This document shows positions 9,745 to 32,275 of a DNA stretch of 37,302 bases, one piece after another (the stretch's first letter is position 1; the number at the start of each line of letters is the position of its first letter). The DNA is from Lachnospiraceae bacterium. Its GTDB lineage: Bacteria; Bacillota; Clostridia; Lachnospirales; Lachnospiraceae. A program made the position numbers and the translations under genes. The stretch is taken from contig JAFYDI010000099.1 in assembly GCA_017544835.1 (NCBI GenBank), positions 1 to 37,302 on the forward strand, written 5' to 3'. Below the pieces are notes generated by a model that saw only the letters and a list, made by a program, of their open reading frames with translations, did not search any database and was not told the origin of the DNA.

Positions 9745-9813
9745 TTTATCGATAAATTATATATAACACACATAAAAATGCTTGTCAATAACTTTTTAAT
9801 GTTTTTCGATAAA
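9745..9813 (-). promoter_or_regulatory. Promoter and palindromic operators of the DUF2975-HTH pair
   Basis: A near-consensus minus-strand promoter, TTGACA about 9782-9787, 17-nt spacer, then TATATA within TTATATATAAT. A perfect palindrome TTTATCGATAAA (9745-9756) covers the likely start of transcription, and a second copy of the half-site in TTTTTCGATAAA (9802-9813) lies upstream of the -35. These are good candidates for autorepressor sites of the HTH protein. Confidence 0.65.
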
Positions 9814-9852
9814 TTTTTTATGTTTTTTCTTTCTCCTCTTTCAAGGCCAAAG

Positions 9853-9874
9853 AAAAACGGCCGTCTCCGACCGC
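9853..9874 (-). terminator. Terminator after the ybaK-type gene
   Basis: On the minus strand GCGGTCG-GAGA-CGGCCGT forms a 7-bp stem with a GNRA tetraloop, followed by TTTTTC. It ends the five-gene mtaD operon. Confidence 0.8.
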
Positions 9875-9896
9875 TTCTTTTAACCTATATTAACCG

Positions 9897-12829: not shown

Positions 12830-12838
12830 AAGTCTCTC

Positions 12839-14110
12839 CTATAAATATTTCTCTACAATTTTATCCACTTCATAATATACTTTATCCATATCGATTGTCA
12901 AAAGAACATTGTCCTTCATAACAAACTTTCCGTTAATCATAACAGACTCAACCTCGGAACCGTTAGCCGAATAACACAAAGCCGATATAGGATTGTTCTC
13001 AGGATACATGGAAGGTGTGCGAAGATTCAGGAAAATAATGTCCGCAATCGCGCCTTCTTTAATCACGCCGAGCTTATCTTCCATATGAAGAGCCTTGGCC
13101 GCATTGACCGTCGCAAAGTTCACAACCGCCTCAGCCGACATAACGGTCGATGACTTGTGAATGCCCTTATGAATAAGGCTTAACAGTCCCATCTCCCTAA
13201 ACATGTTAAGAGTGTTGTTACTAGCACATCCGTCGGTTCCGACGCACAGGTTCACACCCTTCTCCTGCATTTCCTTAATAGGCGCAAATCCGTTACCGAG
13301 CTTGGCATTGGACGCAGGATTGGTAACAACCGTCGCACCGCTCTCCTTAAGAATATCTATATCATCGCCACGCATCTGCACACAGTGAGCAAGAATCGTC
13401 TCATCATCAAGGAATCCGATATCACGTAAGAGCTCAACCGGAGTCTTGCCATACTTCTTAATGCAGTCCTCAATCTCGGTTACGCTCTCAGAAAGGTGAG
13501 TCTGATGAAGCATGCCTCTGTCCTTACTCTCCTTAACCACCTGCTCCATAAGCTTCGGTCCCGCACTGTAAATCGCATGGGGCGAAAGAATGAACTTACA
13601 GGTATCAGACTCAAATTCTTCTTTCTCCTCTATTGCCTCTTTAAATCTTGAATAGCCGTCGGTATAAAGGTCCTCGCCCACAAGTCCGCGTCCGATATAT
13701 CCGCGCATACCCGCAGCGCCCGCCGCAAGCGGCGACTGACGATGGAACATATGCATATCCACAAACGTCGTAGTACCCGACTTAATCATCTCGGCAAAAG
13801 CAAGCAAATTGGTCCAATACGCCGCATCCTTCGGAAGCCTGTCCTCAACCGGCATGCACCGATTAAACAACCACTCGCCGAAATCCACATCATCCGCGTA
13901 ATTCCTAAGCACCGACATATACGCATGCGTATGCATGTTGATAAGACCGGGCATTACAAGCTTATGAGTAGCATCGATTATCTCATAAGTCGCGCCTTTG
14001 TCCTCGGCAAAAGAAAGCTTGTTGCCGTTAACATACAAAGTTTTCTCCTCGATACGGATGTGGCCGTTCTCGGAAATTAATAACTTACCACCTGTAATCT
14101 TATAATTCAT
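12839..14110 (-). CDS. mtaD: 5-methylthioadenosine/S-adenosylhomocysteine deaminase
   Basis: A 423-residue amidohydrolase that deaminates SAH, MTA and related adenosines to inosyl products. Metal ligands are visible in MPGLINMHTHAYMS (His60, His62), GMLHQTHLSES, ILAHCVQMRG and CVGTDGCASNN; the C-terminal IADIIFLNLRTPSMYPENNP is typical of the family. It starts at ATG 14108-14110 with a GGGGAG-type ribosome site upstream. It is the first gene of the operon mtaD-ahcY-membrane protein-epimerase-ybaK. Confidence 0.93.
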   Translation of the reverse strand: MNYKITGGKLLISENGHIRIEEKTLYVNGNKLSFAEDKGATYEIIDATHKLVMPGLINMHTHAYMSVLRNYADDVDFGEWLFNRCMPVEDRLPKDAAYWTNLLAFAEMIKSGTTTFVDMHMFHRQSPLAAGAAGMRGYIGRGLVGEDLYTDGYSRFKEAIEEKEEFESDTCKFILSPHAIYSAGPKLMEQVVKESKDRGMLHQTHLSESVTEIEDCIKKYGKTPVELLRDIGFLDDETILAHCVQMRGDDIDILKESGATVVTNPASNAKLGNGFAPIKEMQEKGVNLCVGTDGCASNNTLNMFREMGLLSLIHKGIHKSSTVMSAEAVVNFATVNAAKALHMEDKLGVIKEGAIADIIFLNLRTPSMYPENNPISALCYSANGSEVESVMINGKFVMKDNVLLTIDMDKVYYEVDKIVEKYL

Positions 14111-14160
14111 ACTTAATCTCCCCTGAAAAGAAACAGTATATTATGTTTCAATAAGTATTA

Positions 14161-14207
14161 AAAATGTACGTTTATAGTACCATATTATACAGGTTAGGAC
14201 AAGGTAA
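14161..14207 (-). promoter_or_regulatory. Candidate promoter of mtaD operon with small palindrome
   Basis: A minus-strand TTGTCC-17-TACTAT element lies upstream of mtaD. A short palindrome AAGGT-A-ACCTT (about 14201-14211) overlaps the region just upstream of the -35 and the end of the lipoprotein gene, and could bind a regulator. I see no SAM or SAH riboswitch. Confidence 0.45.
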
Positions 14208-14209
14208 CC

Positions 14210-15544
14210 TTACCTCCAGTGGGCGTAAAACGTCTTCTCTTCAAAATCGTTGCATTCATAATACATAGAGATTCTGGTTCCGCCATTTGTCGCGGTATAC
14301 CAGCCGTCGAATGTCTTACCATCCATACTTGCCATCGGTAACGGGCCTATCATACCGCCCTTGAAAACAGCTATCGAATCTTTGTCGGTGCTACCACCGT
14401 TCGGGTCAAATTTATATAAAACTTTTTCTTTTTCACTCTCATAATTCGGCGAGATAATGTAAGCCAGTCTGCCTTCACAGTCAGCCATATGTCCGCCTCG
14501 TTTGTAAAAGAGATAGTCACTTTCCATTACAGCATTACTTGCATTTCCCTCAATAACGCGCATTACTATTTTGCCATCACCGGTATCCGTTACACGTTTA
14601 ACCAATGCCGACTGACCGAGAAATGTTTCTGTGTCGTAAGGATCCGTATCAAACGTAACAAGAATGATATCTCCTGTCTTGGGCTTATAGGATCCGCCTC
14701 CGTATATCGTGTCCTTCCATTCATAGCATGCGGCACTCGTCCCCTCAGTAAACAATTTAGCACTTGCAACAACGCTCGTGGAAAGGCAATTTGAGGGCAA
14801 TCCTGCCATTCTTATGCACCAGCTCACAAATTCAGAGCCCCAATAGGCGCCATAATTATCGCTTAAGTTCTCGTACTCAACATAGTCGCCTTCCCCCAAA
14901 GCATTCAGGCCCCCCAGGTCATCCTCATTGTTTCCTTCATGATACCCAATCTGCGACTCTGCGATAGCCACTGCATCTTCTCTAAGGTTCCCTGTTCGTA
15001 TAACTTTCATCAGTCTGTCAAAAAACGGGCTGCTTTCGTAGACTCTCAAGCATGATTCTTTGTCACTCGCCTTTGCTTTTTCCCCCTGATTGAGAGATAA
15101 ATAATAAGGCAATTCATTTCCCGAAAAGAACGGTATCTCTTCATTAATCTTGGCATCTTTCCTCACATATACCTGGCTTACACCGAAACTGCTTAGAAAG
15201 AACACATCGCCTCGGCATTCCCAGTTGTATCGCCCGTAATAATTCACAAAAGCTCTGCCACTGTTTTCGAAGGTAATACTTGACACATTATTTCCTGTAG
15301 CCAGGTATCCAACTCCGTCAGCATTTACACTGATATACGATCCTTCCAATCCTACATTCGGAAAATCTTCCTCTGACAAATGATTGTCTCCTACAGCGTA
15401 CCAATATAGATTGTATCTTCCTGCCATGTCCGGAGTGAACCTCGGCTCCGTATCCGAAGCCCCCTTTTTAACGCATCCCGCAAGCAAAAGAATGCCTGCC
15501 AGCATAACCGCTTTTAAAATTCCCATATTTCTTCGTCTTAACAT
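14210..15544 (-). CDS. Lipoprotein with degenerate CHAP-like domain and C-terminal B-repeat
   Basis: A 444-residue exported lipoprotein: signal peptide with lipobox LLLAGC (Cys24). Residues ~25-190 are a beta-rich region. Residues ~190-365 form a CHAP/NlpC-like amidase domain (AVAIAESQIGYHEGNNED, YWGSEFVSWCIRMAGLP, KPKTGDIILVTFD, VIEGNASNAV). Residues ~374-443 are a Listeria-Bacteroides (InlB-type) repeat (YKFDPNGGS ... FDGWYT ... FYAHW). In the usual W-C-A-x-F-V-S-W-C motif the catalytic Cys is Gly236, and the usual catalytic His before GIV is Gln311. The enzyme is therefore probably inactive and may act as a binding protein on the cell surface. The start ATG has GGGGTGG 9 nt upstream. It ends before the mtaD promoter. 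Confidence 0.8.
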   Translation of the reverse strand: MLRRRNMGILKAVMLAGILLLAGCVKKGASDTEPRFTPDMAGRYNLYWYAVGDNHLSEEDFPNVGLEGSYISVNADGVGYLATGNNVSSITFENSGRAFVNYYGRYNWECRGDVFFLSSFGVSQVYVRKDAKINEEIPFFSGNELPYYLSLNQGEKAKASDKESCLRVYESSPFFDRLMKVIRTGNLREDAVAIAESQIGYHEGNNEDDLGGLNALGEGDYVEYENLSDNYGAYWGSEFVSWCIRMAGLPSNCLSTSVVASAKLFTEGTSAACYEWKDTIYGGGSYKPKTGDIILVTFDTDPYDTETFLGQSALVKRVTDTGDGKIVMRVIEGNASNAVMESDYLFYKRGGHMADCEGRLAYIISPNYESEKEKVLYKFDPNGGSTDKDSIAVFKGGMIGPLPMASMDGKTFDGWYTATNGGTRISMYYECNDFEEKTFYAHWR

Positions 15545-15600
15545 TTAACTGTACCACCCCAAATAAATTTTGCGCATTGAAATGCACCAAAGATAGCATA
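15542..15600 (-). promoter_or_regulatory. Candidate promoter and leader of the lipoprotein gene
   Basis: An extended -10 element (TGC then TATCTT, near 15590) precedes a 5' leader that holds TTTATTTGGGGTGGT. That 15-mer also occurs within the htpG promoter at 32222-32236. No good -35 is visible. Confidence 0.35.
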
Positions 15601-15641
15601 ACACAAAAGAATGAAATCAAAAATCTATTTACTGTCAATTT

Positions 15642-15848
15642 TTGAGTACAACAAATAATTCTTGCCTCAACTCAATACAAGGACTACTCTCAGTTTCTGG
15701 AATCAACATTGATTACAAGGGGTTGCTTAAGTATGCCAAGGAAAAGGGTGTTGCCCCCGTCGATTTGTCTGATGAAGAAAAGAACATGTTTATTAAGAAT
15801 TCAGACATGAAGACAATCAACGAACTCCGCGAAGAAATTGAAGCATAA
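15642..15848 (+). CDS. Small plus-strand ORF or gene remnant (TTG start)
   Basis: A 68-codon frame on the opposite strand to its neighbours. The likely coding part is INIDYKGLLKYAKEKGVAPV, then DLSDEEKNMFIKNSDMKTIN and ELREEIEA, an amphipathic, charged helical sequence with natural codon use, ending right before a strong terminator. The first in-frame start is TTG with no ribosome site, and no plus promoter is evident. It may be the tail of a decayed gene or a genuine small protein starting at a downstream non-ATG codon. I recognise no family. Confidence 0.35.
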   Translation: MSTTNNSCLNSIQGLLSVSGINIDYKGLLKYAKEKGVAPVDLSDEEKNMFIKNSDMKTINELREEIEA

Positions 15849-15860
15849 ATCATTGCAACA

Positions 15861-15886
15861 AAAAAAGAGCCATAGGCTCTTTTTTA
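15861..15886. terminator. Bidirectional terminator between converging small genes
   Basis: An 11-bp stem (AAAAAAGAGCC with GGCTCTTTTTT) and a 3-nt loop, with A-runs and T-runs on the correct sides for both strands. It serves the plus-strand small ORF and the minus-strand 55-residue membrane peptide. Confidence 0.93.
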
Positions 15887-16051
15887 TTTGTCTTTCTTGT
15901 CTCGAAGGACATCTGCTATCTCTTCGAGATTGGCATTCATATCCTCAAGCTCTCTCGGCACCTTAATCAAAAATCTGATAATAAGTACCGAAAGCACTAT
16001 ACCCAAAATCAATACGCAAATCTGGTATACCCCCACAAATGCATCAAGCAT
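15884..16051 (-). CDS. 55-residue single-pass membrane protein
   Basis: A short gene with a strong ribosome site (GAGGGGG, 7 nt before ATG at 16049-16051). The peptide starts MLDAFVGVYQICVLILGIVL with one membrane helix (about residues 5-29), then a charged cytoplasmic helix VPRELEDMNANLEEIADVLR ending in DKKDK. I recognise no family, although this layout resembles small lactococcin- or holin-like accessory peptides. It is 19 nt downstream of mtnN, probably co-transcribed with it, and ends at the bidirectional terminator. Confidence 0.75.
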   Translation of the reverse strand: MLDAFVGVYQICVLILGIVLSVLIIRFLIKVPRELEDMNANLEEIADVLRDKKDK

Positions 16052-16070
16052 CAATGTACCCCCTCTCTCA

Positions 16071-16739
16071 TTATATTAACTTAATCAAATGTGTAATCAT
16101 ATCCACCAGGCAGTCTGCCGCAACAGGCATGAGCTCGTCGAAGGATTCAGACGCGTTATCGTCTGCGGAGTCCGAGATACAGCGAAGTACCACGAAAGGC
16201 ACTTTGTTAAGAAAAGCGGTATGCGCTACGGCACAGCCTTCCATCTCCACACAGAGAGCCGTGGTCTTTTTGAAAATTGCATCCTTCTCCTTGGTAGAGG
16301 ACACAAAGGTATCTCCGGTGGCTATACGGCCGATATGTACGCCGCCTTCGTCGCCTGCTACTTCCTTGGCCTTTTCTACCAAAGCAGGGTCGGCATAATA
16401 TACAGGCTCAAGAGGATCGAAGTTCTTGATGACATAATCCTGCATATCGTGGTACACCAGTTCACTTCCGACCACAAGGTCAAGCTTACCTACGCTCGGA
16501 ACAAGGCTGCCCGCAATACCGTTCTGAATAAGAGCCTTCGGTTTATACTTGTCAATAAGAATCTGTGTATGCATGGCCGCATTAACCTTGCCTACACCGC
16601 AACGACATATAACCACGTCAACACCGTCAAGCTTACCGGTATAATAATCGAGTCCGGCGTGCACTTTCTTCTTCTTGTCTTTAAGAAGATGTACCAGTGT
16701 CTTCATCTCAATATCCATTGCAGAAATTATTCCAATCAT
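16071..16739 (-). CDS. mtnN: 5'-methylthioadenosine/S-adenosylhomocysteine nucleosidase
   Basis: A 222-residue enzyme that removes adenine from MTA and SAH, feeding methionine salvage and the LuxS route. Family features are IGIISAMDIEMKTL (Glu11), CRCGVGKVNAA, ALIQNGIAGSL, ATGDTFVSS, VEMEGCAVAH (Met166, Glu167) and CISDSADD (catalytic Asp190). The start ATG has GGAGG 6 nt upstream. A TGT-TATAAT extended -10 (TATAAT at 16773-16778) lies upstream, with a poor -35. Confidence 0.96.
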   Translation of the reverse strand: MIGIISAMDIEMKTLVHLLKDKKKKVHAGLDYYTGKLDGVDVVICRCGVGKVNAAMHTQILIDKYKPKALIQNGIAGSLVPSVGKLDLVVGSELVYHDMQDYVIKNFDPLEPVYYADPALVEKAKEVAGDEGGVHIGRIATGDTFVSSTKEKDAIFKKTTALCVEMEGCAVAHTAFLNKVPFVVLRCISDSADDNASESFDELMPVAADCLVDMITHLIKLI

Positions 16740-16877: not shown

Positions 16878-17390
16878 TTATGCGTTCTTGCCGCAGCACT
16901 TCTTGTACTTCTTGCCGGAACCGCAAGGGCAGGGATCGTTGGGATAAACCTTAGCTTCCTTACGAATGGTCTGGGAAGCCTTCTGCTCCTTGTAAAGCTC
17001 CTTCTGCTTCTCTTCGTCAAAGATTGCATTCCACTGAGGAAGCTTGTAGAGCCAGTCTGCGCCTGCAGCTACCATGTTCTTGTAAAGAAGCTCCTTGTCA
17101 AATCCAAGGTTAACCTCGGTATCAGCTTCCATGGTCTCGATGGGGTTGGGGTTTACAAGGGAATCGTTGATTCCGTCAAGGAAACCGGTCATAATCATCT
17201 GAGAAACCTTATATTTCTTGGCAAGTTCAGCCACGGTACCCGTTACAACTTCATCGGGATTCTTTAAAAGCTTCTCGTAAATACCTTTTTCTTTCTCAAA
17301 GTAGTCGTTCCAAAGTTCCTGGAGTTTCTTCTGATCCTGTTCTTCGGAATAGGCGCTGTTACGCCACTTTTCAAGTAATGTCTGTGCCAT
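16878..17390 (-). CDS. SEC-C zinc-motif protein
   Basis: A 170-residue soluble protein. Its C-terminus is a SEC-C zinc-binding motif ([20 protein letters not shown], residues ~148-167), the module found at the end of SecA and in many small stand-alone proteins. The N-terminal ~125 residues are helical and acidic and resemble no family I can name. The function of stand-alone SEC-C proteins is largely unknown; some link to translation or protein export. It is monocistronic: own promoter upstream and terminator downstream. Confidence 0.85.
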
Positions 17391-17482: not shown

Positions 17483-18337
17483 TTATTTATCGTTCTCAAA
17501 CCACTTAAAATCCGCAATTGTGCGCTTACGCGTAAGCTTGCCGATCAGCCAGATGTATATCCACGTAAGAATCGGAAGTATAAGCGCCGCCCCAAGAGTT
17601 ACTTTGAATAAAGTCTTAGCAAGCGGAGTCTTAAAGAAAGAAAGCACCAGCATCGCCACAAACAGCACCGCAATCAGGCACAGGCACACAACCGATGCAA
17701 TCCTCTGCCCCTTTGTGTAAGAGGACGTAAATCCCTCCACCTTAACAACACTCGCAAGGTCTTCCTCCGCCTGCTTAACGGAGGTAAACAGGAAAGCATG
17801 CATGCCCGCTTTATTGGCGCCGTCTATGTTTTTCTGCACATCGTCAAAGAAAACGCATTCCTCGGGCTTTAAATTATATTTTTTAAATAAAGCCTCATAA
17901 ATCTCGGGTTCAGGCTTTGTAAGCTTAACATCACAGCTTAAAATATATCCGTCCGTCTCTTCGATAAAAGAAAGCGCGTCCCAGCATTCCCTCACCGCTT
18001 TAAAAGACATGTTCGACAGGCAATATACCTTATATCCTCTTCTTTTTAAATCGATTATCCAGCCGCGGGTATAATCAAAAATTTTAAGAAGCCCGTTAAA
18101 ATCCGCATAAATCTCGCGCATCTTCTCTTCCATGCCCGGGTCGTTCTCTATGAACTTATCTAAGATTTCCTCCTCGCTCATCACGCCTCTGTCGATTTCG
18201 TTCCAGATAGGCGCATAAACCGTAGCCTTGGCTATTCTGTCAAGTTCTTCATCTGTGATGCCAAACTTCTGAAAGAAAGGCTTCCATCCAAACTCAACAA
18301 GTACATTTCCGATATCAAATACAACGTTTTTAATCAT
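17483..18337 (-). CDS. HAD-family hydrolase fused to two membrane helices
   Basis: A 284-residue protein. Residues 1-200 are a HAD subfamily IA phosphatase of the YihX type: motif I VVFDIGNVLVEF (nucleophile Asp8), motif II CLSNMS, motif III KLTKPEPEIYE (Lys) and motif IV FFDDVQKNID (Asp-Asp). Residues ~213-265 add two hydrophobic helices (VCLCLIAVLFVAMLVLSFF and TLGAALILPILTWIYIWLIG) and a basic tail. The domain is normally soluble, so membrane tethering is unusual. It is the last gene of the DUF5717/DUF5716 operon, 20 nt after the coiled-coil gene, which suggests that its phosphatase activity serves that system. Substrate unknown. Confidence 0.85.
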   Translation of the reverse strand: MIKNVVFDIGNVLVEFGWKPFFQKFGITDEELDRIAKATVYAPIWNEIDRGVMSEEEILDKFIENDPGMEEKMREIYADFNGLLKIFDYTRGWIIDLKRRGYKVYCLSNMSFKAVRECWDALSFIEETDGYILSCDVKLTKPEPEIYEALFKKYNLKPEECVFFDDVQKNIDGANKAGMHAFLFTSVKQAEEDLASVVKVEGFTSSYTKGQRIASVVCLCLIAVLFVAMLVLSFFKTPLAKTLFKVTLGAALILPILTWIYIWLIGKLTRKRTIADFKWFENDK

Positions 18338-18357
18338 TTTATCATCCTTAACATGGG

Positions 18358-19515
18358 CTATCTCTGCCCGAATTTATTGACTGTTTCCATAAGCGAGTCA
18401 GCCGCCTGCGGATACCGCTTTATAACATCCTTAACCTCATCGCGGGCTTCCGATGCAATCTCCTGATTGTATTCAAGTTGCTTACGAAGCTTCTGTCTCC
18501 TGCCTATAAGATTGTGCCGAACTTCCACCAGCTCGCGGTGATCGTAGATGGCATCCGACTGATATACCCACACATCGGGGTCCTTAATGTTCATATTGCG
18601 AAGCCTTCTTAAAAGCTTGGCGGTCTCGGTCTCATATGCCGCCTCATTCTTTGCAAACGCCCGCCTGTTCTCGCGTTCCTTAAGATACTTGGCATGTAAG
18701 TCCTTAAGCTCCGCCGCGCTTGACACCTGATACTTGGTATAGAGGTAATCTAACAGGTTCTTATTGTTGACGTAGCGAATCTTAACCTTGTTCTCAAGCA
18801 AAATAAGGCTGTTTGACGTGCTCTCAATTCTTTTCTTCTCGCGCACATAATCCGTGTACTTAATGTATACCCACGTAACGGCTATAGCCGTAATGCCCAC
18901 CGTAATATAATAACCGATTGCCACATCAAGCTTTAATAATACCTGAAGCAAAAGAAGGATTACTATCAGGACTGCTGCCGCCACCATGGCAATCATAGCA
19001 ATTCCGCGGGAGTTCTCCAGGTCTCTTGTAACCTCGCGGCGACGCATTTCGTAAGCGGTTCGCTCTGTATCGATGCGCGCAAGGTCGCTTTTAACCTTAG
19101 CCTTGTAATCCTCTTCCTTGGTAAGCTTGTCGATGCCTTCCTGAGCCTCGGAAGCAATAGCTTCCATCTTCTCATATTCCTTGTCCGTCATAAGACTCGG
19201 AGTCTTGGCGTATTTCTCGTGATCCTTCCTAAGATCGTGGATGTTGCGGGCAATCTTATCAAGGTCTTCTTTCTCATCGGGAGGAAGCTTTTCAATTTCT
19301 TCCAGATCGGCAAGGTAAGAATTAACCGTCGCATACTCTTCATTAATCCTGTCCATCTCATCCGAGGCGTCCTTCATCTGCTCAAGGCAGCTTATGACAT
19401 ACTGCTCGCGAAGATAGGGATCGTTCATGTTAATGTTGTCTCTGGAGCTTGCAACCTCATCCCATGCACTTTCGGGCGTATTCTTTTTCCTGAATAATTT
19501 GTCCAAAAAACCCAT
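18358..19515 (-). CDS. Coiled-coil protein with two membrane helices
   Basis: A 385-residue protein. Residues ~40-180 are long charged coiled coils (IEKLPPDEKEDLDKIARNIH, EKMEAIASEAQEGIDKLTKE), followed by two membrane helices close together (~184-210 GIAMIAMVAAAVLIVILLLL and ~214-236 VAIGYYITVGITAIAVTWVY). A second cytoplasmic coiled-coil and basic helical part follows (240-385). The short hairpin loop means both coiled-coil arms are probably on the cytoplasmic side. I recognise no family. It is the fourth gene of the operon, with gaps of about 20 nt on both sides, and could anchor the complex to the membrane. Confidence 0.8.
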   Translation of the reverse strand: MGFLDKLFRKKNTPESAWDEVASSRDNINMNDPYLREQYVISCLEQMKDASDEMDRINEEYATVNSYLADLEEIEKLPPDEKEDLDKIARNIHDLRKDHEKYAKTPSLMTDKEYEKMEAIASEAQEGIDKLTKEEDYKAKVKSDLARIDTERTAYEMRRREVTRDLENSRGIAMIAMVAAAVLIVILLLLQVLLKLDVAIGYYITVGITAIAVTWVYIKYTDYVREKKRIESTSNSLILLENKVKIRYVNNKNLLDYLYTKYQVSSAAELKDLHAKYLKERENRRAFAKNEAAYETETAKLLRRLRNMNIKDPDVWVYQSDAIYDHRELVEVRHNLIGRRQKLRKQLEYNQEIASEARDEVKDVIKRYPQAADSLMETVNKFGQR

Positions 19516-19536
19516 TCTTAGTGACCCCCTGTATTA

Positions 19537-20385
19537 CTACAAATCACCGTTTTCAAGAGCAATGTCGCGATACTCGTCCTTAAGCTCGCCGGTCATTGCG
19601 GAAATTTCCTCGTAGTACAAAGCCGCATCCTTCCGATCTTTAAGTTCGAAGAGGTTCTTTAAGTGCTTAGCCTTATCGGATGCGTCAAATTCGGCCTTAA
19701 GCTCTTCTATCTCGCCTTCTATCGGAATGCTCATTCGGTATGCATCCTCGGAATCGGCTATAAGCTTAATATATTCATTCTCCGGAAGCCTCAAGCGCTC
19801 GGCGGTAAGAAGGTGCTTGAAAGCCTTTTCGTCATTGTTAATCTCATAAGCCTTCTTAAAATACGAAACCGCGGAGTCATACAGGCACAAAGCCATACAG
19901 GTAACTCCCATATTATTGTAAATACGGCTTCTAAGTTCCGTCTCTTCCTCGTCGATGCCTGATAAAACATGCTCGTATTCCTTAAGAGCAAGGTAATAGT
20001 GGTGGTTCTCGTAGAGGAAATCCGCCTTGGCCTTCCACTTTTCGAATACATTCATGGATACATTCATCCTGAGAATGCTCTCGACCTTCTCTATCTCATC
20101 GGCGTTGTAATATCCCACATATTCAAGTATGGTCCCCACAAACGCTCCGGGAAGGGCATTGTTATTGACTAACATAAAGAGATTACGCGCAAGGTCCGTA
20201 AGTCCGCACTCAAGGTCTATCCATTCCACCAGTTTCTTGTCAAGAATGTCCTTGTCAATCAGGAAGGCGTTCTCATAGAGGACATAGCACAGTTCCTCCA
20301 TGGTATAGATATTCACGTAAACTTTTTCAAAATAGTAAGGAGTGGTCGCAACCTTGCCGACCGTTGTAAGCACACGATTCGTCAC
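19537..20385 (-). CDS. TPR-containing cytoplasmic protein
   Basis: A 282-residue helical protein. A tetratricopeptide pair is visible at roughly residues 115-185 (ADFLYENHHYYLALKEYEHV, IYNNMGVTCMALCLYDSAVS, YFKKAYEIN). The N-terminal third (VGKVATTPYYFEKVYVNIYT) is less clear. I place the start at the GTG (20383-20385), which overlaps the TGA of the upstream gene by 4 nt and has a perfect GGAGG 10 nt upstream (20396-20400). A frame upstream could add 7 residues but would overlap by 25 nt. TPR proteins mediate protein contacts; here it would join the Hsp70-like protein and the solenoid. Confidence 0.82.
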   Translation of the reverse strand: MTNRVLTTVGKVATTPYYFEKVYVNIYTMEELCYVLYENAFLIDKDILDKKLVEWIDLECGLTDLARNLFMLVNNNALPGAFVGTILEYVGYYNADEIEKVESILRMNVSMNVFEKWKAKADFLYENHHYYLALKEYEHVLSGIDEEETELRSRIYNNMGVTCMALCLYDSAVSYFKKAYEINNDEKAFKHLLTAERLRLPENEYIKLIADSEDAYRMSIPIEGEIEELKAEFDASDKAKHLKNLFELKDRKDAALYYEEISAMTGELKDEYRDIALENGDL

Positions 20386-21683
20386 AGATTGATTACCTCC
20401 TTCCATTCAATATCGGAGGCCTTAAACAGTTCACCAAAGCCCAAATCCTTAATGGTGACCTGCATACGCATCTCTGAAATCATGGACACATCCACCTTGA
20501 CCCTTGAAGTCTTGGGAGGGCGCTTCGGAAGGTCCGCAAGCGTAATATCCACTATCTCAGGATTCTTACCCGTCAAAGGCGTAATGACCAAAGAAAGCTT
20601 GTTGCCCTTATCGATTATAACCTCAACACTGCCTGATGCCTCAAACCAGTTAACGCCCGCATCAAGAAGCGCAAGGTAACCGGGCTCTCCGCGCTTAAGT
20701 ACGTTAAGTCCTACATTGGACTTAAGCTTATCGTTACCCAGGAACACGTGGCTCTCGCTTAAAAGCGTCTTATGAATCTTGTTCTTGGCAGAGTATGCAG
20801 CGCCCTTGGAATAAAGGTTATTACCCTCAAATACGCGGCTTGTTTTCACAACGGAGCGGATAGTCTCCCCGAATATCTCCTGCCTGAAGTTCTCGCCTAT
20901 AAAGTATACGGAGGATACGATTCTTCCCTCGCATATCTGAGCCACAAGCTTGCATAACTCTCCGTCGGCATATCTTGCCTCTTCGGAATTGATGATTAAA
21001 TCTTTAATATCCGCAGTCTTAAAAGAATGATAAGACTCCGGGTCGATAAATGCCACTATGGGCGTAGTATTCTTATTACATTCCATCCTTAAGGACTTAA
21101 GGTATGTCTCTGAAAAGTCCAGCAAAAGAACATCTCTGTTCCAAAGGTCCGTAGGCTGGTAAATCGTATAGTAGTAAAAGCTCTCCATGTGGCTTTGGAA
21201 GAAGACATTCTCAGTCTTAAGGCCAAGAGATGCCACCACTTCGGTAAGAACCTCCACCATTCTATCGTCAAGCGAAGACACCGTAATCATAAGCGACGAT
21301 ATCTTATTAAGAGAAACCGTCATGGATAAAAGAGAAAGCGACCTCTTCATGAAAAGCGCAAGCAAAGCAGACGGTCTGAAGCTCTCATCTCCGACCGCTA
21401 TCTCATCGCCCGCCATTGCTTTTTCTAAGATCTTATCCACAAAAAATCCGTCCGTATCGCGGTTCTTAATGGCATCATTACCTGAGAACCACTGGTTGAC
21501 TTCCTTTCTTTTGAATAAAACCGTAGGTATCAGGTATGAAGCGCCGCCTGGGATTGTGGACAGAGTATCCACCTTCTCATCATCCATACGGGTGAAACTT
21601 ATCTGAGAATAGGTGTCTGTTAAGTCAAAGCCCACTGCATATTCTTCTGTATTCGGTTTTCTTAAGTCTCCGAATAAATCCAT
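20382..21683 (-). CDS. Degenerate Hsp70/actin-fold protein (DUF5716-like)
   Basis: A 433-residue protein I associate with DUF5716. The N-terminal half follows the Hsp70 nucleotide-binding fold: VGFDLTDTYSQISF (17-30) at phosphate loop 1, SYLIPTVLFKRKEVNQWFSG (49-68) like the Hsp70 IPSVVxF region, DVLLLDFSETYLKSLRM (184-200) at phosphate loop 2, and SVYFIGENFRQEIF (258-271) with LYSKGAAYSAK (290-300) at the adenosine region. The loops have lost many Gly and acidic residues, so ATP binding is doubtful. Residues ~350-425 are a beta domain (SRVKVDVSMISEMRMQVTIK, then DLGFGEL) like the Hsp70 substrate-binding beta domain. The gene starts 15 nt after DUF5717 and its stop overlaps the TPR gene start. 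Confidence 0.85.
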   Translation of the reverse strand: MDLFGDLRKPNTEEYAVGFDLTDTYSQISFTRMDDEKVDTLSTIPGGASYLIPTVLFKRKEVNQWFSGNDAIKNRDTDGFFVDKILEKAMAGDEIAVGDESFRPSALLALFMKRSLSLLSMTVSLNKISSLMITVSSLDDRMVEVLTEVVASLGLKTENVFFQSHMESFYYYTIYQPTDLWNRDVLLLDFSETYLKSLRMECNKNTTPIVAFIDPESYHSFKTADIKDLIINSEEARYADGELCKLVAQICEGRIVSSVYFIGENFRQEIFGETIRSVVKTSRVFEGNNLYSKGAAYSAKNKIHKTLLSESHVFLGNDKLKSNVGLNVLKRGEPGYLALLDAGVNWFEASGSVEVIIDKGNKLSLVITPLTGKNPEIVDITLADLPKRPPKTSRVKVDVSMISEMRMQVTIKDLGFGELFKASDIEWKEVINL

Positions 21684-21698
21684 CTGTATGTATCGTCC

Positions 21699-24600
21699 TT
21701 ACTCAAGTGTAAACATCTTGTCTATAACATAGGCGTGCTTGTGATAATCGTATAAAAGCTTGTCCACGGTATCGTAGTCCTGCAAAGTCTGGGCAATTAC
21801 AATATCGTTGACTTCGTTAAACCTGGAATCAAAGGAATCTCGGCTGATATCGCTCTTCTGGATACTTGCGCTCTCCGTAAGAAGTTCTTCGCCCTCAAAT
21901 TCCTCCGTTATATAGTACAAAAGGTTCTCGCCGAAGAACAGCACGAAGGCCTTCGCGTGAACTCCGCCGTACATATCGCGCATCTCTTCCGTCACATACT
22001 CGCCGGAAGACTCGCCCTCGCCCTCAATAATATAGTGAATAAACACTTTCTTGCCGGGGTCAGTCTTGTATTCGATGATGGTCTTGTCCGAGAATCTGTT
22101 AAGAGCAGGCTCTCTTCCGTCCCAGAAGTTCTTAAAGAAGGACATATATATGCCCTCTGCAAGGAGCTTGTTAAGATACTCATCGATAATCGGCGATACC
22201 GTCTCATCAATTCCGGCTTTATCTTCAGAAAAGTACTTAAGGTAAGCAAGCATGCAGACCGTCTGGATGTTCTCGCCCCTAAGGTGCGCCTTGGTAAGCT
22301 CCGTAAACACCTCCGGCTCCATAATGTACTCTCTTACAAAGTAGTCAAAAGAACACTGCGAAAGAAAGGCCATCTTAATGTCGCTGTTGCCGCCACCCTG
22401 CACGTACTTTCTGTATATATCCATACGCTCCGATACAAAGTACCCTGTATAGAGCATCTGAAGTATCAGGTTCTCGCACATCTTATATGTATCAAGGTCG
22501 AAGTTCTCGGCCGCCTTAAATATCTTACGAATATCCTTGGTCATTCCGCGGTAATTGTCCGCAAGGTACTTAAGAATTACCTCGTCGTACTTGCCCTGAG
22601 AAAAGGCCTTGGCCGCAATCTTCACCATGCGCTCGTCAGGCTCGTATTCGTCTCTTACAATAAGCTTTGAGCACAGTTTCACAAGGTCTCTTGCCTCTAT
22701 GCTCTCGGTTCCGAAACGCTTAACCCACTCGATTGCGGTATCATACATTCCTCTTATAACCAGGAAACGCTCCGCCGTAACTCGCTCTCTTACCGTCATT
22801 TCGACAGGCTCTAAGCCCGCAAGGACTTCGTCAAGCTCTCTTATCTCGTCGCGGTCATAGTAGTAATCCATTAGCTTGTTGCGTACCTCGGACTTGTACT
22901 CGCTGTCTATGCGTGGATCGTCAAGGATATGAGCATAGCGCTCTCTTGTCTCTTCATTAATCTCCACAGTCTCGGAGCTGCACTCGCACACATATACGTC
23001 AAATTCAAGATTGCCGTGTATCATGGGCATAATCTTGGTCGCAAGCTTACCGGGCACCATAAGCATCTCAAGATCGTACTTGGAACTTACGGAATATCTG
23101 TTGGAGAAATTATCCTCAAACATTATCTCAAAATCCCTGTTATAAAGCGGCACATAAGCTTCGCCGTCCTTCACGGGATAGAAGGTTTCCTCGCTCTCCC
23201 TGCTCTGGTACACGATAACCTTGTTAAGGTTCTTGTTATCAACCGTAATCTTATGTGTAAAAAGAAGCCTTGCCATATTATCCGCAAGTGACTTATCAAG
23301 GTCGGTATTGCCATACACATGCCTGTATATGGTCGCAAGGTCCTTGTTGATAAGTCCCGAAGATATGCAGTCCACACTGAATCTTTCGATACGGTCTCTG
23401 AAATTATCATAAATATCGGGCAGTACTTCTCTGTCCGCTATCACACGCGCGTAAAGGTATGCCGCATAGTCCCATTTAAGATTACTCTCATAGGAGAAGT
23501 AAAGGTATACCATCTTGGGAATGTCATTGTCCACGGTGATATCCATGGATTCCATGTAGAACTCATAAAGCCTTGTGGCACGGACCTCCGAAAGGACTCC
23601 GAGTTCATACCAGTCGTGAGCTTCCGAGTCACGTCTCTCGCCCTTAATAAGGTATTCACATATGATAAGAAGCTTGTCTTCGCCCGGTTTTAACTCGTAA
23701 CACTTTTTAAGAAGCGGCCAGAGGCGCCTGTTGTATTCTTTCTCCTTAGATACGAGATATACGAACTGGTCGCAGACGTCGTCGGTAAGGATTTCATTCT
23801 GCGAAGCGTAGTTAAGAAGCTTAATCTCAAAAGGCGTAAGCGCAGTAAGAAGCGTAGGATTCTGATTAAGCATGTTAACCGCTTCTACCAGGAACATAGG
23901 GCTTACGCAGCCTGTTTCAATCTGCTGTCTTATAAAGAGCCACTTCTTGGAAGGGCTTACCGCAAACTCCTCGGAAAGGTACAAAAGGAGCCAGCCGACT
24001 CTCCAGTCCGAAGGGTCGCTTGAATATATCTTATTAACCTCGTCGGTTATGTTGTCTATGTAACTGTCCTCTCTTGTGTAGAGGGTCGTTAAGTACAAGT
24101 AATATGCCCAGATTGTGGGTGAATTGATATCGGGGTTATCTTTAAGCTCATTCTCGGCCTGGTCGAGTATCCATTTGGCCTCGTTGTAGCGCTCTTCTAT
24201 CATAAGCATCTGAGCCTTGAAAAGCTTGGGATACAGCAAATCGGGGCTGATTTCCCTCATGCGGTCCACCAGACGGTTCGTCTCCGTAATCCAGGTGCCA
24301 AGAGCAATCTTACGGGTTCTGAAGGCCTCGTAGTATGTAAACATATCGTAGCTTGAATGCATCATCTCAAGGTGCTTCGAACGCTCCGCCTTAGTCACAA
24401 CCTCGCTTGATACGGTTACGCTCACTTCAAAAGAAACATACGCGTTATAAAAGCGCACCTTGCCAAAGTTCAGTCCGCCGTGAAGATTGTCGGGATTTAT
24501 AAGCACAGGAAAGCTTAAGTAATTGCCAAGGAAATCATCATCCGTCACCACAGACTTCGTAAAGCTTATAAACTCGCCATCCGCCTCAACATTTAAGAAA

Positions 24601-25268
24601 GTGTATCCCCAACCGTTTCTGGTAATGTTAACGTACTCTTCCACTATGCCTATGGGGTCGTCAATGGTAATCTGCGTGCGCTCGGGTATGAATTCAACCG
24701 GCTGCTTCTTATTGATGGAAAGAAGGAACTCTTCAACATTCTGCTCGTTACCGTAGAAGCGCGAAAGTCCGAGATACAATTTCTTGTACCTTAAGTCGTT
24801 ACCTACGAAAAGATTGATAAACTCTTCCGAATAAAACAGTTTAACCGCTTCATTCCAGGAGGACTTGGCAAGATTGGTGAAATGGAACAGATTCTTGATG
24901 CTTCCGAGACTTGACTCGATATTCTTCTTAAGAACAGTTACAACATAAGGAAGGTAGTACTCGCCCTGATTGGAGATTATATAAAGCTCCCCTTGGGCTA
25001 CATCTCCCTCTTCAAGCCCCTGCGCCGAGAAAGTATATCCAATCTCCGACTCAAGTCCCGAGAAACTGTCCACTATAAGTTCCATGCGAATGTCCGAGGA
25101 GTAGACTCGTCCCTCGGTAAGACGGCCTCTTACGGCCTTGATAAAGAAGCTCCCCGTATATATTTCATCGGGAGCAAGCGTTAACTCTATGCGCGACAAA
25201 GAAAGGTCCAAAGACCCTTTTTCATAATCGAATTGTCCGTTTAAGATTCTTTCTACCGTCCGCCTCAT
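21699..25268 (-). CDS. Giant alpha-solenoid protein (DUF5717-like)
   Basis: A protein of about 1189 residues that I associate with DUF5717. The N-terminal ~115 residues are beta-rich (LDLSLSRIELTLAPDEIYTG, GELYIISNQGEYYLPYVVTV) and look like an Ig-like sandwich; a second beta region lies near residues 215-300. From ~310 to ~1000 is a long run of helical pairs with TPR/SEL1-like spacing (LYPKLFKAQMLMIEERYNEA, WVKRFGTESIEARDLVKLCS). The C-terminal ~200 residues again contain beta strands. No signal peptide or membrane helix. I choose ATG 25266-25268; a TTG two codons upstream is possible. It is the first gene of the operon and lies next to the Hsp70-like gene. Function unknown; architecture suggests a large scaffold. 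Confidence 0.85.
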   Translation of the reverse strand: MRRTVERILNGQFDYEKGSLDLSLSRIELTLAPDEIYTGSFFIKAVRGRLTEGRVYSSDIRMELIVDSFSGLESEIGYTFSAQGLEEGDVAQGELYIISNQGEYYLPYVVTVLKKNIESSLGSIKNLFHFTNLAKSSWNEAVKLFYSEEFINLFVGNDLRYKKLYLGLSRFYGNEQNVEEFLLSINKKQPVEFIPERTQITIDDPIGIVEEYVNITRNGWGYTFLNVEADGEFISFTKSVVTDDDFLGNYLSFPVLINPDNLHGGLNFGKVRFYNAYVSFEVSVTVSSEVVTKAERSKHLEMMHSSYDMFTYYEAFRTRKIALGTWITETNRLVDRMREISPDLLYPKLFKAQMLMIEERYNEAKWILDQAENELKDNPDINSPTIWAYYLYLTTLYTREDSYIDNITDEVNKIYSSDPSDWRVGWLLLYLSEEFAVSPSKKWLFIRQQIETGCVSPMFLVEAVNMLNQNPTLLTALTPFEIKLLNYASQNEILTDDVCDQFVYLVSKEKEYNRRLWPLLKKCYELKPGEDKLLIICEYLIKGERRDSEAHDWYELGVLSEVRATRLYEFYMESMDITVDNDIPKMVYLYFSYESNLKWDYAAYLYARVIADREVLPDIYDNFRDRIERFSVDCISSGLINKDLATIYRHVYGNTDLDKSLADNMARLLFTHKITVDNKNLNKVIVYQSRESEETFYPVKDGEAYVPLYNRDFEIMFEDNFSNRYSVSSKYDLEMLMVPGKLATKIMPMIHGNLEFDVYVCECSSETVEINEETRERYAHILDDPRIDSEYKSEVRNKLMDYYYDRDEIRELDEVLAGLEPVEMTVRERVTAERFLVIRGMYDTAIEWVKRFGTESIEARDLVKLCSKLIVRDEYEPDERMVKIAAKAFSQGKYDEVILKYLADNYRGMTKDIRKIFKAAENFDLDTYKMCENLILQMLYTGYFVSERMDIYRKYVQGGGNSDIKMAFLSQCSFDYFVREYIMEPEVFTELTKAHLRGENIQTVCMLAYLKYFSEDKAGIDETVSPIIDEYLNKLLAEGIYMSFFKNFWDGREPALNRFSDKTIIEYKTDPGKKVFIHYIIEGEGESSGEYVTEEMRDMYGGVHAKAFVLFFGENLLYYITEEFEGEELLTESASIQKSDISRDSFDSRFNEVNDIVIAQTLQDYDTVDKLLYDYHKHAYVIDKMFTLE

Positions 25269-25343
25269 TAACAAACGCCCCGTTTTTCAGGGTTCTTCTC
25301 CACTCAGTTTCTTGCTTTTGCGCATAATCCCGCATTCTTTAAT

Positions 25344-25378
25344 ATTATAACATTTCTGCTTGAATTGTGAAACAATTC
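25344..25378 (-). promoter_or_regulatory. Promoter of the DUF5717-DUF5716 operon with overlapping palindrome
   Basis: TTTCAC (25367-25372), 17-nt spacer, TATAAT (25344-25349) with a TG extended -10. An inverted repeat GAATTG-5-CAATTC (25362-25378) covers the -35 and could bind a repressor. Transcript start near 25337, about 70 nt before the ATG. Confidence 0.65.
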
Positions 25379-30102: not shown

Positions 30103-32148
30103 TTATTTATCTGCTTCGGCAAGTTTAAGAAGAATGTCGTTGCTGCGCTGAACGAATTTGGTCATGTCCTCTGAAGAGAGGGGTGCCTGCTGGAGCTTGG
30201 CGAGGTCGTAGAGCTGCTCGGCAAAGAGAGATACGTCTTCGTCCTTGTGGGCTACCATGTACTCAACCAACGGGTGGTTGGCATTGAGAATGAGGGTCTC
30301 GCCGGTCTCGGCGCCAAACATCTTGGGATCCATACCGGGCATAGCGTACATCTTCATCATGTCCTGCATTCTGCGTGATTCCTCGGATAAGGTAATCATG
30401 GAAGCAATCTTCTTGTTCTTAAGCTTCTCGACGGTGAGTTTTAAGTCTTTAAGCTTAAGGGTCTTTTCAAAGACGGTCTTTAAGTCTTTGGCTTCGGCAT
30501 CGAGTTCTTCCTGAGCTTTCTTGGAGGTCTTAGACTTCAAAGTGTCTGTTATGTCGGCATCGATACGAGAGAACTTAATGCCGGGGTTCTTGGCTTCAAG
30601 CTGGGAGATGAAGGGCTGGTCGATGTTGTGTTTAAGCACTACAGCGTCCATCTTGGCCTGCTTGAACATGTTGATGTACTGGCTCTGCTGCTGTTCGTCG
30701 GTTACGTAGTAGATGGTCTTGTCTTTCTCCTTGGCATCAGCATCTTCGGAAGAAGCCTCGTCCACTACTTCTGCGTCAACCTTCTCGCCGTTTTCATCGG
30801 TAGCATTCTCTTCTACGTCGATGGGCTTAACCTCGAGGCACTCGGGAAGTGTCATATACTTACCGTCTAAGTTCTTAAAAAGAATGTAGTCTGTCATCTT
30901 CTCGCAGAACTTATCGTCCTTTAAGCAGCCGTATTTGATGAAGGGAGAAATGTCTTCCCAGTATTTTTCGTAGTTTTCTTTGTCGGTCTTGCACATGCCG
31001 GATAACTTGTCGGCAACCTTCTTAGTGATGTACTCGGAAATCTTGGTAACAAAGCCGTCGTTCTGAAGAGCGGAACGGGATACGTTAAGAGGAAGGTCGG
31101 GGCAGTCTATAACGCCCTTTAAGAGCATTAAGAACTCGGGGATAACTTCCTTGATGTTATCGGCAATAAATACCTGGTTGTTGTAAAGCTTGATGGTACC
31201 TTCGATGGATTCGTACTCCATGTTAATCTTGGGGAAGTAAAGGATACCCTTTAAGTTGAAAGGATAGTCCATGTTAAGGTGAATCCAGAAAAGGGGCTCC
31301 TTGTAATCGTTGAAGACTTCGCGATAGAACTTCTTGTAGTCTTCGTCGGAGCACTCATTGGGGTGCCTGGTCCACAAAGGATTGGTCTCGTTAAGAAGTT
31401 CGGGGCGTTTTTCGATTTTAAGTTTAGCCTCATCTCCTTCTTTCTCAGGCTTAATCTCTTCGATTACAACGTCGGAATCAAGCTTTTCAGAAGCCTTTAT
31501 AGTTTCGGTGCCCTTGTCGGGAGCTTCGGAAATATAAATCTCGGTAGGCATGAAGGAACAATACTTCTTAATAACCTCACGAGCCTTGTATTTGTTGCAG
31601 AACTCCAAGCAGTCATCGTTAAGGAAAAGGGTAATCTTGGTGCCGACTTCAGGCTTCTCGCACTCTTCCATGGAGTACTCTGTACCGCCGTCGCACTCCC
31701 AATGAACTGCCTTGGAACCGGGCTTGTAGGAAAGAGTATCGATGTGAACTTCCTTGGCTACCATGAATGCCGAGTAGAAGCCGAGACCGAAGTGACCGAT
31801 AATCTGGTCTTCATTGGCCTTGTCCTTGTACTTGCTGATAAAATCCGTAGCACCGGAAAAAGCAATCTGGTTGATGTATTCTTCAACTTCGCCACCGGTC
31901 ATACCAAGACCGTTATCGATAAAAGTAAGTGTCTTGTCTGTAGAATTAACTACTACGTCGATGCGTCCCTTATAGTCTGCGGGAAGCTCGTACTCGCCCA
32001 TCATGGCAAGCTTTTTAAGCTTGGTGATGGCATCGCAGCCGTTGGAAATAAGCTCTCTGTAAAAAATATCGTGATCGGAATATAACCACTTTTTGATAAT
32101 AGGGAAAATATTCTCGCTGTTAATTGATAAACTACCGTGTTTAGCCAT
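30103..32148 (-). CDS. htpG: Hsp90-family molecular chaperone HtpG
   Basis: A 681-residue cytosolic Hsp90. The GHKL ATPase motifs are visible: YRELISNGCDAITKL (Asn36), FIDNGLGMT (Asp78, Gly80) and GHFGLGFYSAF (118-128). The middle-domain catalytic arginine is in LNVSRSALQ (Arg358). The C-terminal dimer domain ends near SNDILLKLAEADK, without MEEVD as expected in bacteria. It is longer than the usual ~625 because of an acidic linker at about residues 444-477 (DVEENATDENGEKVDAEVVD...). Its promoter carries a CIRCE element and so is probably under HrcA control. Monocistronic. Confidence 0.97.
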   Translation of the reverse strand: MAKHGSLSINSENIFPIIKKWLYSDHDIFYRELISNGCDAITKLKKLAMMGEYELPADYKGRIDVVVNSTDKTLTFIDNGLGMTGGEVEEYINQIAFSGATDFISKYKDKANEDQIIGHFGLGFYSAFMVAKEVHIDTLSYKPGSKAVHWECDGGTEYSMEECEKPEVGTKITLFLNDDCLEFCNKYKAREVIKKYCSFMPTEIYISEAPDKGTETIKASEKLDSDVVIEEIKPEKEGDEAKLKIEKRPELLNETNPLWTRHPNECSDEDYKKFYREVFNDYKEPLFWIHLNMDYPFNLKGILYFPKINMEYESIEGTIKLYNNQVFIADNIKEVIPEFLMLLKGVIDCPDLPLNVSRSALQNDGFVTKISEYITKKVADKLSGMCKTDKENYEKYWEDISPFIKYGCLKDDKFCEKMTDYILFKNLDGKYMTLPECLEVKPIDVEENATDENGEKVDAEVVDEASSEDADAKEKDKTIYYVTDEQQQSQYINMFKQAKMDAVVLKHNIDQPFISQLEAKNPGIKFSRIDADITDTLKSKTSKKAQEELDAEAKDLKTVFEKTLKLKDLKLTVEKLKNKKIASMITLSEESRRMQDMMKMYAMPGMDPKMFGAETGETLILNANHPLVEYMVAHKDEDVSLFAEQLYDLAKLQQAPLSSEDMTKFVQRSNDILLKLAEADK

Positions 32149-32248: not shown

Positions 32249-32275
32249 TTAGCACTCATTTAACATGAGTGCTAA
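32249..32275. promoter_or_regulatory. CIRCE element (HrcA operator) at htpG
   Basis: A perfect TTAGCACTC-N9-GAGTGCTAA inverted repeat, the binding site of the heat-shock repressor HrcA. It lies 7 bp upstream of the best -35 of htpG, an unusual position because CIRCE normally sits at or just after the transcription start. Confidence 0.97.

Follow-up and report, generated by a model that had tools for sequence, protein, structure and literature searches.

A lidless pseudo-Hsp70 of Lachnospiraceae and its gene set as a probable reduced form of a multi-Hsp70 operon

Genes P1, P2, P3 and, in some loci, P4 represent with high probability the reduced, Lachnospiraceae-type form of a multi-Hsp70 machine specific to the order, as far as architecture and relationship are concerned. 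The evidence is computational and covers homology, predicted fold, motif loss, ancestry and conserved gene order. The explanation as a whole, a reduced multi-Hsp70 machine built round a pseudo-Hsp70 and acting in the way proposed below, is given a probability of about 0.5.

The window, i.e. the whole stretch of DNA analysed, comprises 37,302 nt of a Lachnospiraceae bacterium (GCA_017544835.1, contig JAFYDI010000099.1, positions 1 to 37,302, forward strand). P1 to P5 all lie on the minus strand, from 25274 down to 17483, with intergenic gaps of 15, 21 and 20 nt, as described in an earlier note made from the sequence. The 4-nt overlap of P2 and P3 seen there is also real, the most likely start of P3 being a GTG that shares GTGA with the P2 stop and has an AAGGAGG ribosome-binding site ahead of it. 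Its ‘one clear promoter’ fared less well: the promoter-like site is present and ranks first among 20 matches in the stretch, but shuffled DNA is expected to give 19.0 matches, so that the site alone is weak evidence. No RNA family was found in the window at the gathering threshold.

Table 1. Features of the window
Feature	Coordinates	Strand	Remarks
P1, DUF5717 protein	21699..25274	-	1191 aa; alternative start ATG 25268
P2, DUF5716 protein	20382..21683	-	433 aa; Pfam, DnaK profile, fold of a relative, motif and length tables, trees
P3, TPR protein	19537..20385	-	282 aa from GTG 20385; ORF list: start 20406, 289 aa
P4, coiled-coil membrane protein	18358..19515	-	385 aa; alignment and hydropathy
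P5, HAD-IA hydrolase with hydrophobic C-terminal tail	17483..18337	-	284 aa; neighbour, outside the core set
Promoter-like site TTCACA-16-TATAAT	25344..25371	-	TG ahead of the second hexamer; motif scan
htpG (Hsp90)	30103..32148	-	PF00183, E 2.8e-62; 4.8 kb upstream of P1
CIRCE-type heat-shock operator	32249..32275	.	0/18 mismatches; 101 nt upstream of htpG

The pseudo-Hsp70 and its TPR partner

P2 matches Pfam DUF5716 above the curated cut-off (E 1.3e-99), the family named in the earlier note. A DnaK profile and the predicted fold of a P2-P3 fusion from a relative (locus L067) indicate an actin-like NBD followed by SBD-beta, and the fold modelled on this fusion comes closest to those of DnaK and Ssz1. 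Both the motif order of an Hsp70 and the terminal SBD-like beta domain proposed earlier are thereby supported, and the reading survives the search for an actin/Hsp70 fold by structure prediction.

Degradation of the phosphate loops, also suspected earlier, is evident from the alignments. In DnaK numbering, the K70 column holds a lysine in 0/38 P2 and in 0/31 HspB, the pseudo-Hsp70 of the larger operon; this loss could be blurred by alignment, since a lysine occurs within two aligned columns in 17/38 P2 and 14/31 HspB. T199 and D201 are each kept in a single P2 of 38 and in none of the 31 HspB, while E171, which has no reliable alignment in HspB and P2, was left out of the comparison. P2 retains D8 (33/38), D194 (22/38) and G341 (38/38), and the persistence of D8 and G341 means that it may still bind some ligand at the old nucleotide site. 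These retained positions are also what would speak for an active but divergent ATPase using other residues, which is very unlikely given the state of the K70, T199 and D201 columns and the disappearance of roughly half of the region containing subdomain IIB.

Subdomain IIB, the main GrpE-binding part of DnaK, is missing from P2: 64 residues (52-71) separate the D201 and G341 columns, versus 133-136 in DnaK, and the span of 137 residues (125-145) in HspB shows it to be kept there. The alpha-helical lid is absent as well, with a median of 13 residues after SBD-beta versus 142 in DnaK. SBD-beta itself carries conserved positions, including a D-x-GFG motif. Judged from alignments, trees and the model, P2 is a lidless pseudo-Hsp70 without subdomain IIB, and the ortholog of HspB.

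P3 consists of a conserved N-terminal segment followed by TPR repeats, in agreement with the TPR partner assumed earlier. Natural P2-P3 fusions in 5/41 loci and one confident joint model, that of the L067 fusion, support a partnership of the two proteins.

Composition and distribution of the gene set

P1 matches PF18984 and PF18983 (DUF5717, also correctly named in the earlier note) above the curated cut-off, with E 2.7e-291 and 8.1e-98. Its model (pLDDT 86.7) predicts two N-terminal PapD/ASH-like Ig domains (about residues 20-117 and 193-291), a TPR-like solenoid (about 293-1060) interrupted by a beta insert (673-737), and a C-terminal beta domain (1064-1139), in an arrangement that is unsure because pTM is only 0.56. 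Foldseek and VIA find resemblance to TPR solenoids and to domains of the ciliary ASH type, which agrees with the giant helical solenoid with beta domains described earlier; against solved structures, the best sequence match of P1 (E 0.044) is too weak for use. HrpB1 and AMIN matches of P1 and P2 lie under the Pfam cut-offs and were dropped, the AMIN match recurring in 1/37 P2 proteins.

P4 comprises a coiled coil, a hydrophobic two-helix hairpin (about residues 172-218) and a second coiled coil; the two coiled coils probably share one side of the membrane. Hydropathy gives two hydrophobic segments in P4 and two to three overlapping ones in P5, as expected for the coiled-coil membrane partner and the membrane-bound HAD of the earlier note; the P4 profile finds nothing among PDB sequences at E 0.1 or better. 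P4 lies downstream of P3 in 16/41 loci, its profile matches in 66/150 family genomes (one match weak, E 4.6e-4), and homologs close the larger operon in 6 loci. P4 is thus rejected as an obligate member, and as fewer than half of the genomes have it, membrane tethering cannot be a general need. The HAD phosphatase is not supported as a member: of the 71 near loci that allowed a judgement, 2 have it immediately after P4, namely the window and the closely related L147, and the P5 form of 284-296 aa occurs, among 81 loci, only in these two, L143 and L156. It is rated as a gene that neighbours the set in a few close relatives.

The order P1-P2-P3 is invariant in 41/41 loci, which were picked via a P2 match so that P2 is present by construction. 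Conservation of the five genes as a unit, as proposed earlier, is not confirmed; the earlier idea of chaperone-like genes accompanied by a membrane protein is supported. The P1-P2-P3(-P4) set is near-universal in sampled Lachnospiraceae genomes and has housekeeping neighbours. Neither P1 nor the GrpE-like protein GrpL is found in 101/196 order genomes, so the system is dispensable at that level. In a class sample, the P1 profile matches 12/291 genomes, ten in Lachnospiraceae and two weakly (G758, E 2.6e-4; G789, E 3.0e-5), and the GrpE-like profile 0/291, a result that shows little by itself as the sample holds no known positive. A description of DUF5717 or DUF5716 was not found in the literature searched; the one paper found to mention DUF5716 is PMC8115291.

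A set of this composition could also be a scaffold of cell architecture or of the envelope, with the Hsp70 fold serving as a protein-protein adaptor that binds no client. The lost catalytic parts of P2, the combination of ASH/PapD-like domains with a TPR-like solenoid that is typical of scaffolds, the near-universal occurrence in the family and the hairpin and coiled coils of P4 would all fit. This role is nevertheless rather unlikely, as P2 keeps its SBD-beta with D-x-GFG among its conserved positions, and the larger operon has the look of a chaperone set, since a GrpE-like protein accompanies its three catalytically complete Hsp70s.

The larger operon, its ancestry and htpG

In sister families, a larger operon encodes four Hsp70 paralogs (HspA, HspB, HspC and HspD), GrpL, P3 and sometimes P4, together with an Ig-solenoid scaffold made of P1a and P1b, in two genes or one; in Lachnospiraceae, P1 is one chain. 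Residues K70, T199 and D201 are complete in HspA, HspC and 27/28 HspD. These three paralogs lack the usual lid, and at its position HspD carries a vWA domain with the MIDAS-type motif D[TS][TS]GSM in 28/28 proteins (Pfam VWA, E 3.1e-8 in locus L195). In GrpL, the GrpE domain sits on a long helical chain; in the L195 protein (645 aa) it occupies residues 510-642 (PF01025, E 1.4e-14). A calcineurin-like phosphoesterase lies just upstream of the operon among the ten L195 genes scanned.

In trees, P2 nests within HspB, with a warning from the tree tool about long branches in both. This nesting and the spread over several families suggest that the larger form is ancestral; it may instead have been gained in the sister families. 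The larger operon lies outside the window, hence the earlier note missed this descent. Tentatively, with the odds somewhat against it, the operon may be viewed as an undescribed protein-handling machine, in which three lidless or vWA-capped Hsp70 ATPases, a pseudo-Hsp70 and a GrpE-like factor would sit on an Ig-TPR scaffold, whittled to a near-universal ATP-independent core in one main human gut family.

Wherever htpG is present in the locus DNA, it lies upstream on the same strand: in 31/121 family loci, or 29/118 without the duplicates of three identical pairs (L037/L085, L041/L130 and L101/L102), with a gap of 127 nt or less in 6/31. Scored against the CIRCE consensus, an operator with at most 2/18 mismatches accompanies 21/31 htpG loci. 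No site with 2 mismatches or fewer belongs to the P1 operon itself, the good sites being those of htpG and, in L201, of a gene read by eye as hrcA; sites with 4 mismatches are about equally frequent in shuffled DNA. Nine DnaK control loci gave no CIRCE site, a void control as the stretches fetched probably end short of the operon start. The htpG neighbour is possibly linked in function to the P1 operon; only relatives of the window show the linkage, which may go back to a single inherited placement.

Such a link would suit a complex that acts only with the general chaperones, as a hand-over adaptor in which P3 and P2 dock on DnaK or HtpG. The likeness of the P2 fold to DnaK and Ssz1 points the same way (Ssz1 works with Ssb in the ribosome-associated complex, RAC), as do the TPR family membership of P3 and the htpG and CIRCE placements. 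The restriction of htpG linkage to part of the family does not, nor does the search for a J-domain partner, a trait of RAC: neither the ten L195 genes nor those window genes that were scanned match DnaJ. To our knowledge, bacterial Hsp90 and Hsp70 also lack the EEVD tail, the signal read by TPR co-chaperones. Dependence on the general chaperones alone is therefore doubtful.

Mode of action and comparison with known systems

The mode of action proposed for P1-P2-P3(-P4), for which the odds are just short of even, starts from the loss in Lachnospiraceae of GrpL and of all three Hsp70 ATPases, together with that of subdomain IIB in the surviving P2. Complex formation, location, client binding and hand-over are the steps that we infer. 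With P3 at the place of the lid, P2 would offer its SBD-beta as an ATP-independent subunit binding clients or partners. P1 would be the scaffold of the assembly, through a hypothetical P2-P1 contact, and P4, where present, would anchor it to the membrane on the cytoplasmic side. Release could occur by competition or by hand-over to general chaperones such as DnaK and HtpG.

DUF5717 and DUF5716, near-universal in sampled Lachnospiraceae, thus gain a likely class of function and an evolutionary origin. The role left to an Hsp70 after loss of ATP hydrolysis and of its exchange factor becomes directly testable, because the large operon, the reduced forms and several stages of HspB all survive. The P2-P3 pair, naturally fused in some species, is a compact target for structure and pull-down work.

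A role in defence or conflict, on the lines of CoCoNuT CnuD or of those GTPase systems that include HSP70 and GrpE, is disfavoured and highly improbable. Conflict systems joining HSP70, GrpE, TPR and vWA parts are described in PMC7159879 (section 29) and PMC11090510, but PADLOC gives no family match for P1-P4, and its unnamed candidate model PDC-M61B matches HspA, HspC and HspD weakly (E 4e-5 to 5.5e-9). Neither a GTPase nor a nuclease match was found among the ten L195 genes scanned, nor a GTPase among ten Pfam-named neighbour clusters of family loci; the near-universal distribution and housekeeping neighbours also argue against this role.

Compared with DnaK/Hsp70 (PF00012), the NBD and SBD-beta of P2 remain recognisable by profile and predicted fold, whereas K70, subdomain IIB, the lid and, in all but one protein each, T199 and D201 are missing. 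MoxR-vWA chaperone modules resemble the larger operon as ATP-driven chaperones with vWA, TPR and membrane parts; the larger operon, however, has Hsp70 instead of an AAA+ ATPase, and its vWA is fused to Hsp70. Ssz1 of RAC has an NBD that binds ATP, according to the title of entry 4gni, and pairs with a J-protein, while the partners of P2 would be TPR and Ig-solenoid proteins. CnuD of Type III CoCoNuT, as presented in PMC11090510, likewise joins an Hsp70-like NBD/SBD with degenerate motifs to helical repeats, but no McrB, DUF2357 or HEPN match was found in the genes scanned here. The GTPase-centred GAP1-N2 conflict systems share one or two HSP70s with GrpE, and proteins in which FNIII repeats are joined to DnaJ or TPR (PMC7159879, section 29); by contrast, the larger operon has four Hsp70s, and the set described here is near-universal in its family instead of forming a variable island.

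Conserved genes around a degenerate Hsp70

P1 (DUF5717), P2 (DUF5716) and the TPR protein P3 form a conserved gene set, in which P2 descends from an Hsp70 that has lost its ATPase. ORF calling recovered the five closely spaced minus-strand genes where the earlier note had placed them. The P2/P3 overlap also holds, GTGA at the most likely P3 start being shared with the P2 stop, and Pfam scores far above cut-offs bear out the DUF5717 (both halves) and DUF5716_C identities. The "one clear promoter" is the top-scoring promoter-like site of the window, though chance alone would give 19 matches of this kind.

With one Lachnospiraceae genome per genus, a profile search detected P2 (PF18980) in 145 of 150 genomes, and in none of 14 controls. 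P1 or its fragments persist in three of the five P2-negative genomes, while P1, P2 and P3 are all absent from G029 and G091 (the P3 search in G029 gave weak TPR matches alone, E 9.6e-5 and 3.2e-4). Forty loci were drawn from the 145 positive genomes, favouring long contigs and divergence, with genes called by a simple codon-based script. Counting the window, all 41 loci have P1, P2 and P3 side by side in one direction, and five carry a P2-P3 fusion. The claim of a conserved five-gene unit stands for these three genes but not beyond them: the coiled-coil gene P4 comes next in 16/41, and the HAD gene lies directly 3′ of P4 in 2 of 71 judgeable loci. The latter come from a set of 81 (80 further family loci, L101 and L102 being identical, plus the window), where the order P1-P2-P3-P4 occurs in 72. 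The P4 profile matches 66 of the 150 genomes, once weakly. Housekeeping functions make up the other common neighbours (purine synthesis, valyl-tRNA synthetase, malic enzyme, aminotransferase, amino-acid transporter). A defence role is disfavoured by this setting, and a scan with PADLOC profiles, together with a gene scan of L195, a larger-operon locus described below, also counted against it.

Features of the window and of loci L201 and L202
Feature	Position	Strand	Remark
DUF6937-DUF6938 protein	1180-2682	-	strong scores; function not assigned
S-adenosylhomocysteine hydrolase, amidohydrolase, methylthioadenosine/SAH nucleosidase	11582-16739	-	downstream, close together; resembles a cluster for recycling SAM by-products
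Terminator-like hairpin and T run	16863-16840		3′ of SEC-C motif gene
SEC-C motif protein (PRK05590 family)	16878-17390	-	92 nt past HAD gene
P3 start, most likely GTG	20385	-
htpG (Hsp90)	30103-32148	-	4.8 kb upstream of P1
CIRCE-type site	32249-32275		exact; upstream of htpG
PD-(D/E)XK nuclease-family transposase (PF12784)	35726-36541	-	close to window end
L201 (G561:C8), perfect CIRCE-type site and hrcA-like gene	22-1089		hrcA-like gene read by eye, 3.6 kb from P1a, opposite strand
L202 (G565:C66), PP2C-like phosphatase, kinase, Hsp70 homolog in a row	6161-10880		first two by eye, from translations

A larger operon in sister families

An Hsp70 search of 20 relatives turned up additional Hsp70 genes in families of the order other than Lachnospiraceae. 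They belong to a related larger operon, which encodes a GrpE-like protein and three Hsp70s with all catalytic residues in place. At L195 it comprises P1a, P1b, HspA, GrpL, HspB, HspC, HspD and P3, sometimes joined by P4 at other such loci; GrpL is GrpE-like on a long helical chain (PF01025, E 1.4e-14 at L195). By eye, an aminotransferase at L195 and a valyl-tRNA synthetase at L197 are flanks in common with Lachnospiraceae loci.

Across 47 loci, 39 of them added in a second round, the order P1b-HspA-GrpL-HspB-HspC-HspD-P3 occurs in 25, six of which also have P4. P1a is a separate gene in 17 of these, is fused with P1b in three (L205, L216, L231) and was not recognised in five (L222, L223, L234, L238, L239). 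The remaining 22 comprise six loci truncated where the contig or the locus ends (L196, L200, L201, L226, L230, L232), eight with P1a-P1b alone (L213, L214, L219, L220, L227-L229, L242), three partial operons (L208, L211, L236), three with Hsp-type pieces without P1 (L198, L199, L203) and two of the reduced P1-P2-P3 type (L224, L225). In seven of the eight P1a-P1b-alone genomes GrpL lies on a different contig, so the operon is dispersed there; no GrpL was found in the eighth, G734.

The P1 profile matches 94 of 196 order genomes and, in a class sample of 291, ten genomes of the window's family plus two weak matches. Of the 196 order genomes, 70 carry GrpL (69 together with P1) and 101 have neither gene. 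P1 occurs without GrpL in all 21 P1-bearing Lachnospiraceae of this set and in four genomes outside (G572, G710, G715, G734).

Ancestry of P2 and loss of Hsp70 parts

The catalytic residues D8, T11, T12, K70, E171, D194, G196-198, T199 and D201 (DnaK numbering) are invariant in 34 HspA and 30 HspC, and are kept in 27 of 28 HspD, the exception being a broken gene piece at L197; N13 is replaced by H in two HspC. All 31 HspB lack K70, G198, T199 and D201 (R at D201 in 28), with D8 and D194 retained in 30, and their subdomain IIB stretch is full-length (median 137 residues versus 136 in DnaK). The degraded phosphate loops ascribed to P2 are confirmed in 38 proteins, P2-P3 fusions excluded: none keeps K70, one has T199 and one D201, 33 retain D8 and 22 D194, and the IIB stretch measures 64 residues. 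K70 is the least certain of these losses, since 14/31 HspB and 17/38 P2 have a lysine no more than two alignment columns away. Median lengths after SBD-beta are 9-22 residues in HspA, HspB, HspC and P2, and 142 in DnaK; in HspD a C-terminal vWA domain occupies this place, with a MIDAS-type motif in 28/28.

A quick tree (89 of 170 proteins) nests P2 in HspB, closest to that of L197, with HspC as sister of both. A more careful tree covers 44 proteins, rows from eleven long-branched loci having been taken out. P2 forms a single clade in it and HspB on its own does not; grouping P2 with HspC (p-AU 2.5e-61) or HspA (p-AU 2.7e-4) is rejected. Because the tree tool flags long branches in P2/HspB in both trees, orthology was also rested on gene order and the DUF5716_C score (in L195, HspB 90 bits versus 41 for HspC). 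Together with the residue and IIB counts, these data point to a stepwise series from a full ATPase Hsp70, through a pseudo-Hsp70 with a whole NBD (HspB), to one without IIB (P2). Judged from sequence, P2 is an Hsp70 descendant but probably not a functioning Hsp70. Subdomain IIB is the main GrpE contact, and the IIB-less form coincides with absence of the GrpE-like gene.

Heat-shock linkage and proposed assembly

In the family, htpG accompanies 31 of 121 loci (5/41 in the window and L037-L076, 26/80 in L085-L164; 29/118 with identical pairs removed). In every such locus it lies upstream of P1 in the same orientation, the gap ranging from 11 to 5365 nt (≤127 nt in six). The near loci (L085-L164) reach ~6.4 kb upstream of P1, so farther copies fall outside view. 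A CIRCE-type operator (≤2 of 18 mismatches) stands at htpG in 21/31 loci, 19 of them perfect. Since many loci are related, this linkage is suggestive rather than independent evidence. At L201 the genome's DnaK lies within ~1 kb of the hrcA-like gene, and the larger operon thus sits beside general heat-shock genes there.

The larger operon may be the ancestral form. P1, P2 and P3 would constitute one assembly, in which SBD-beta of P2 could bind clients or a partner without ATP, P3 would stand in for the lid and P4 might anchor the whole to the membrane. Rival readings make P1-P2-P3(-P4) a pure scaffold, or an adaptor for DnaK or HtpG. No functional description of DUF5716 or DUF5717, nor a publication recognisable as describing this operon, was found in the literature searched.

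The P1-P2-P3(-P4) system and the larger operon are filed here under Hsp70 chaperone machinery. Conflict systems combining HSP70, GrpE and TPR proteins are already published and are GTPase-centred (PMC7159879); the phosphatase-kinase row at L202 resembles kinase-phosphatase modules described for conflict systems. The closest working parallel to the proposed mechanism is Ssz1, whose rudimentary SBD shows transient, low-affinity binding to nascent chains ahead of Ssb (PMC7083937).
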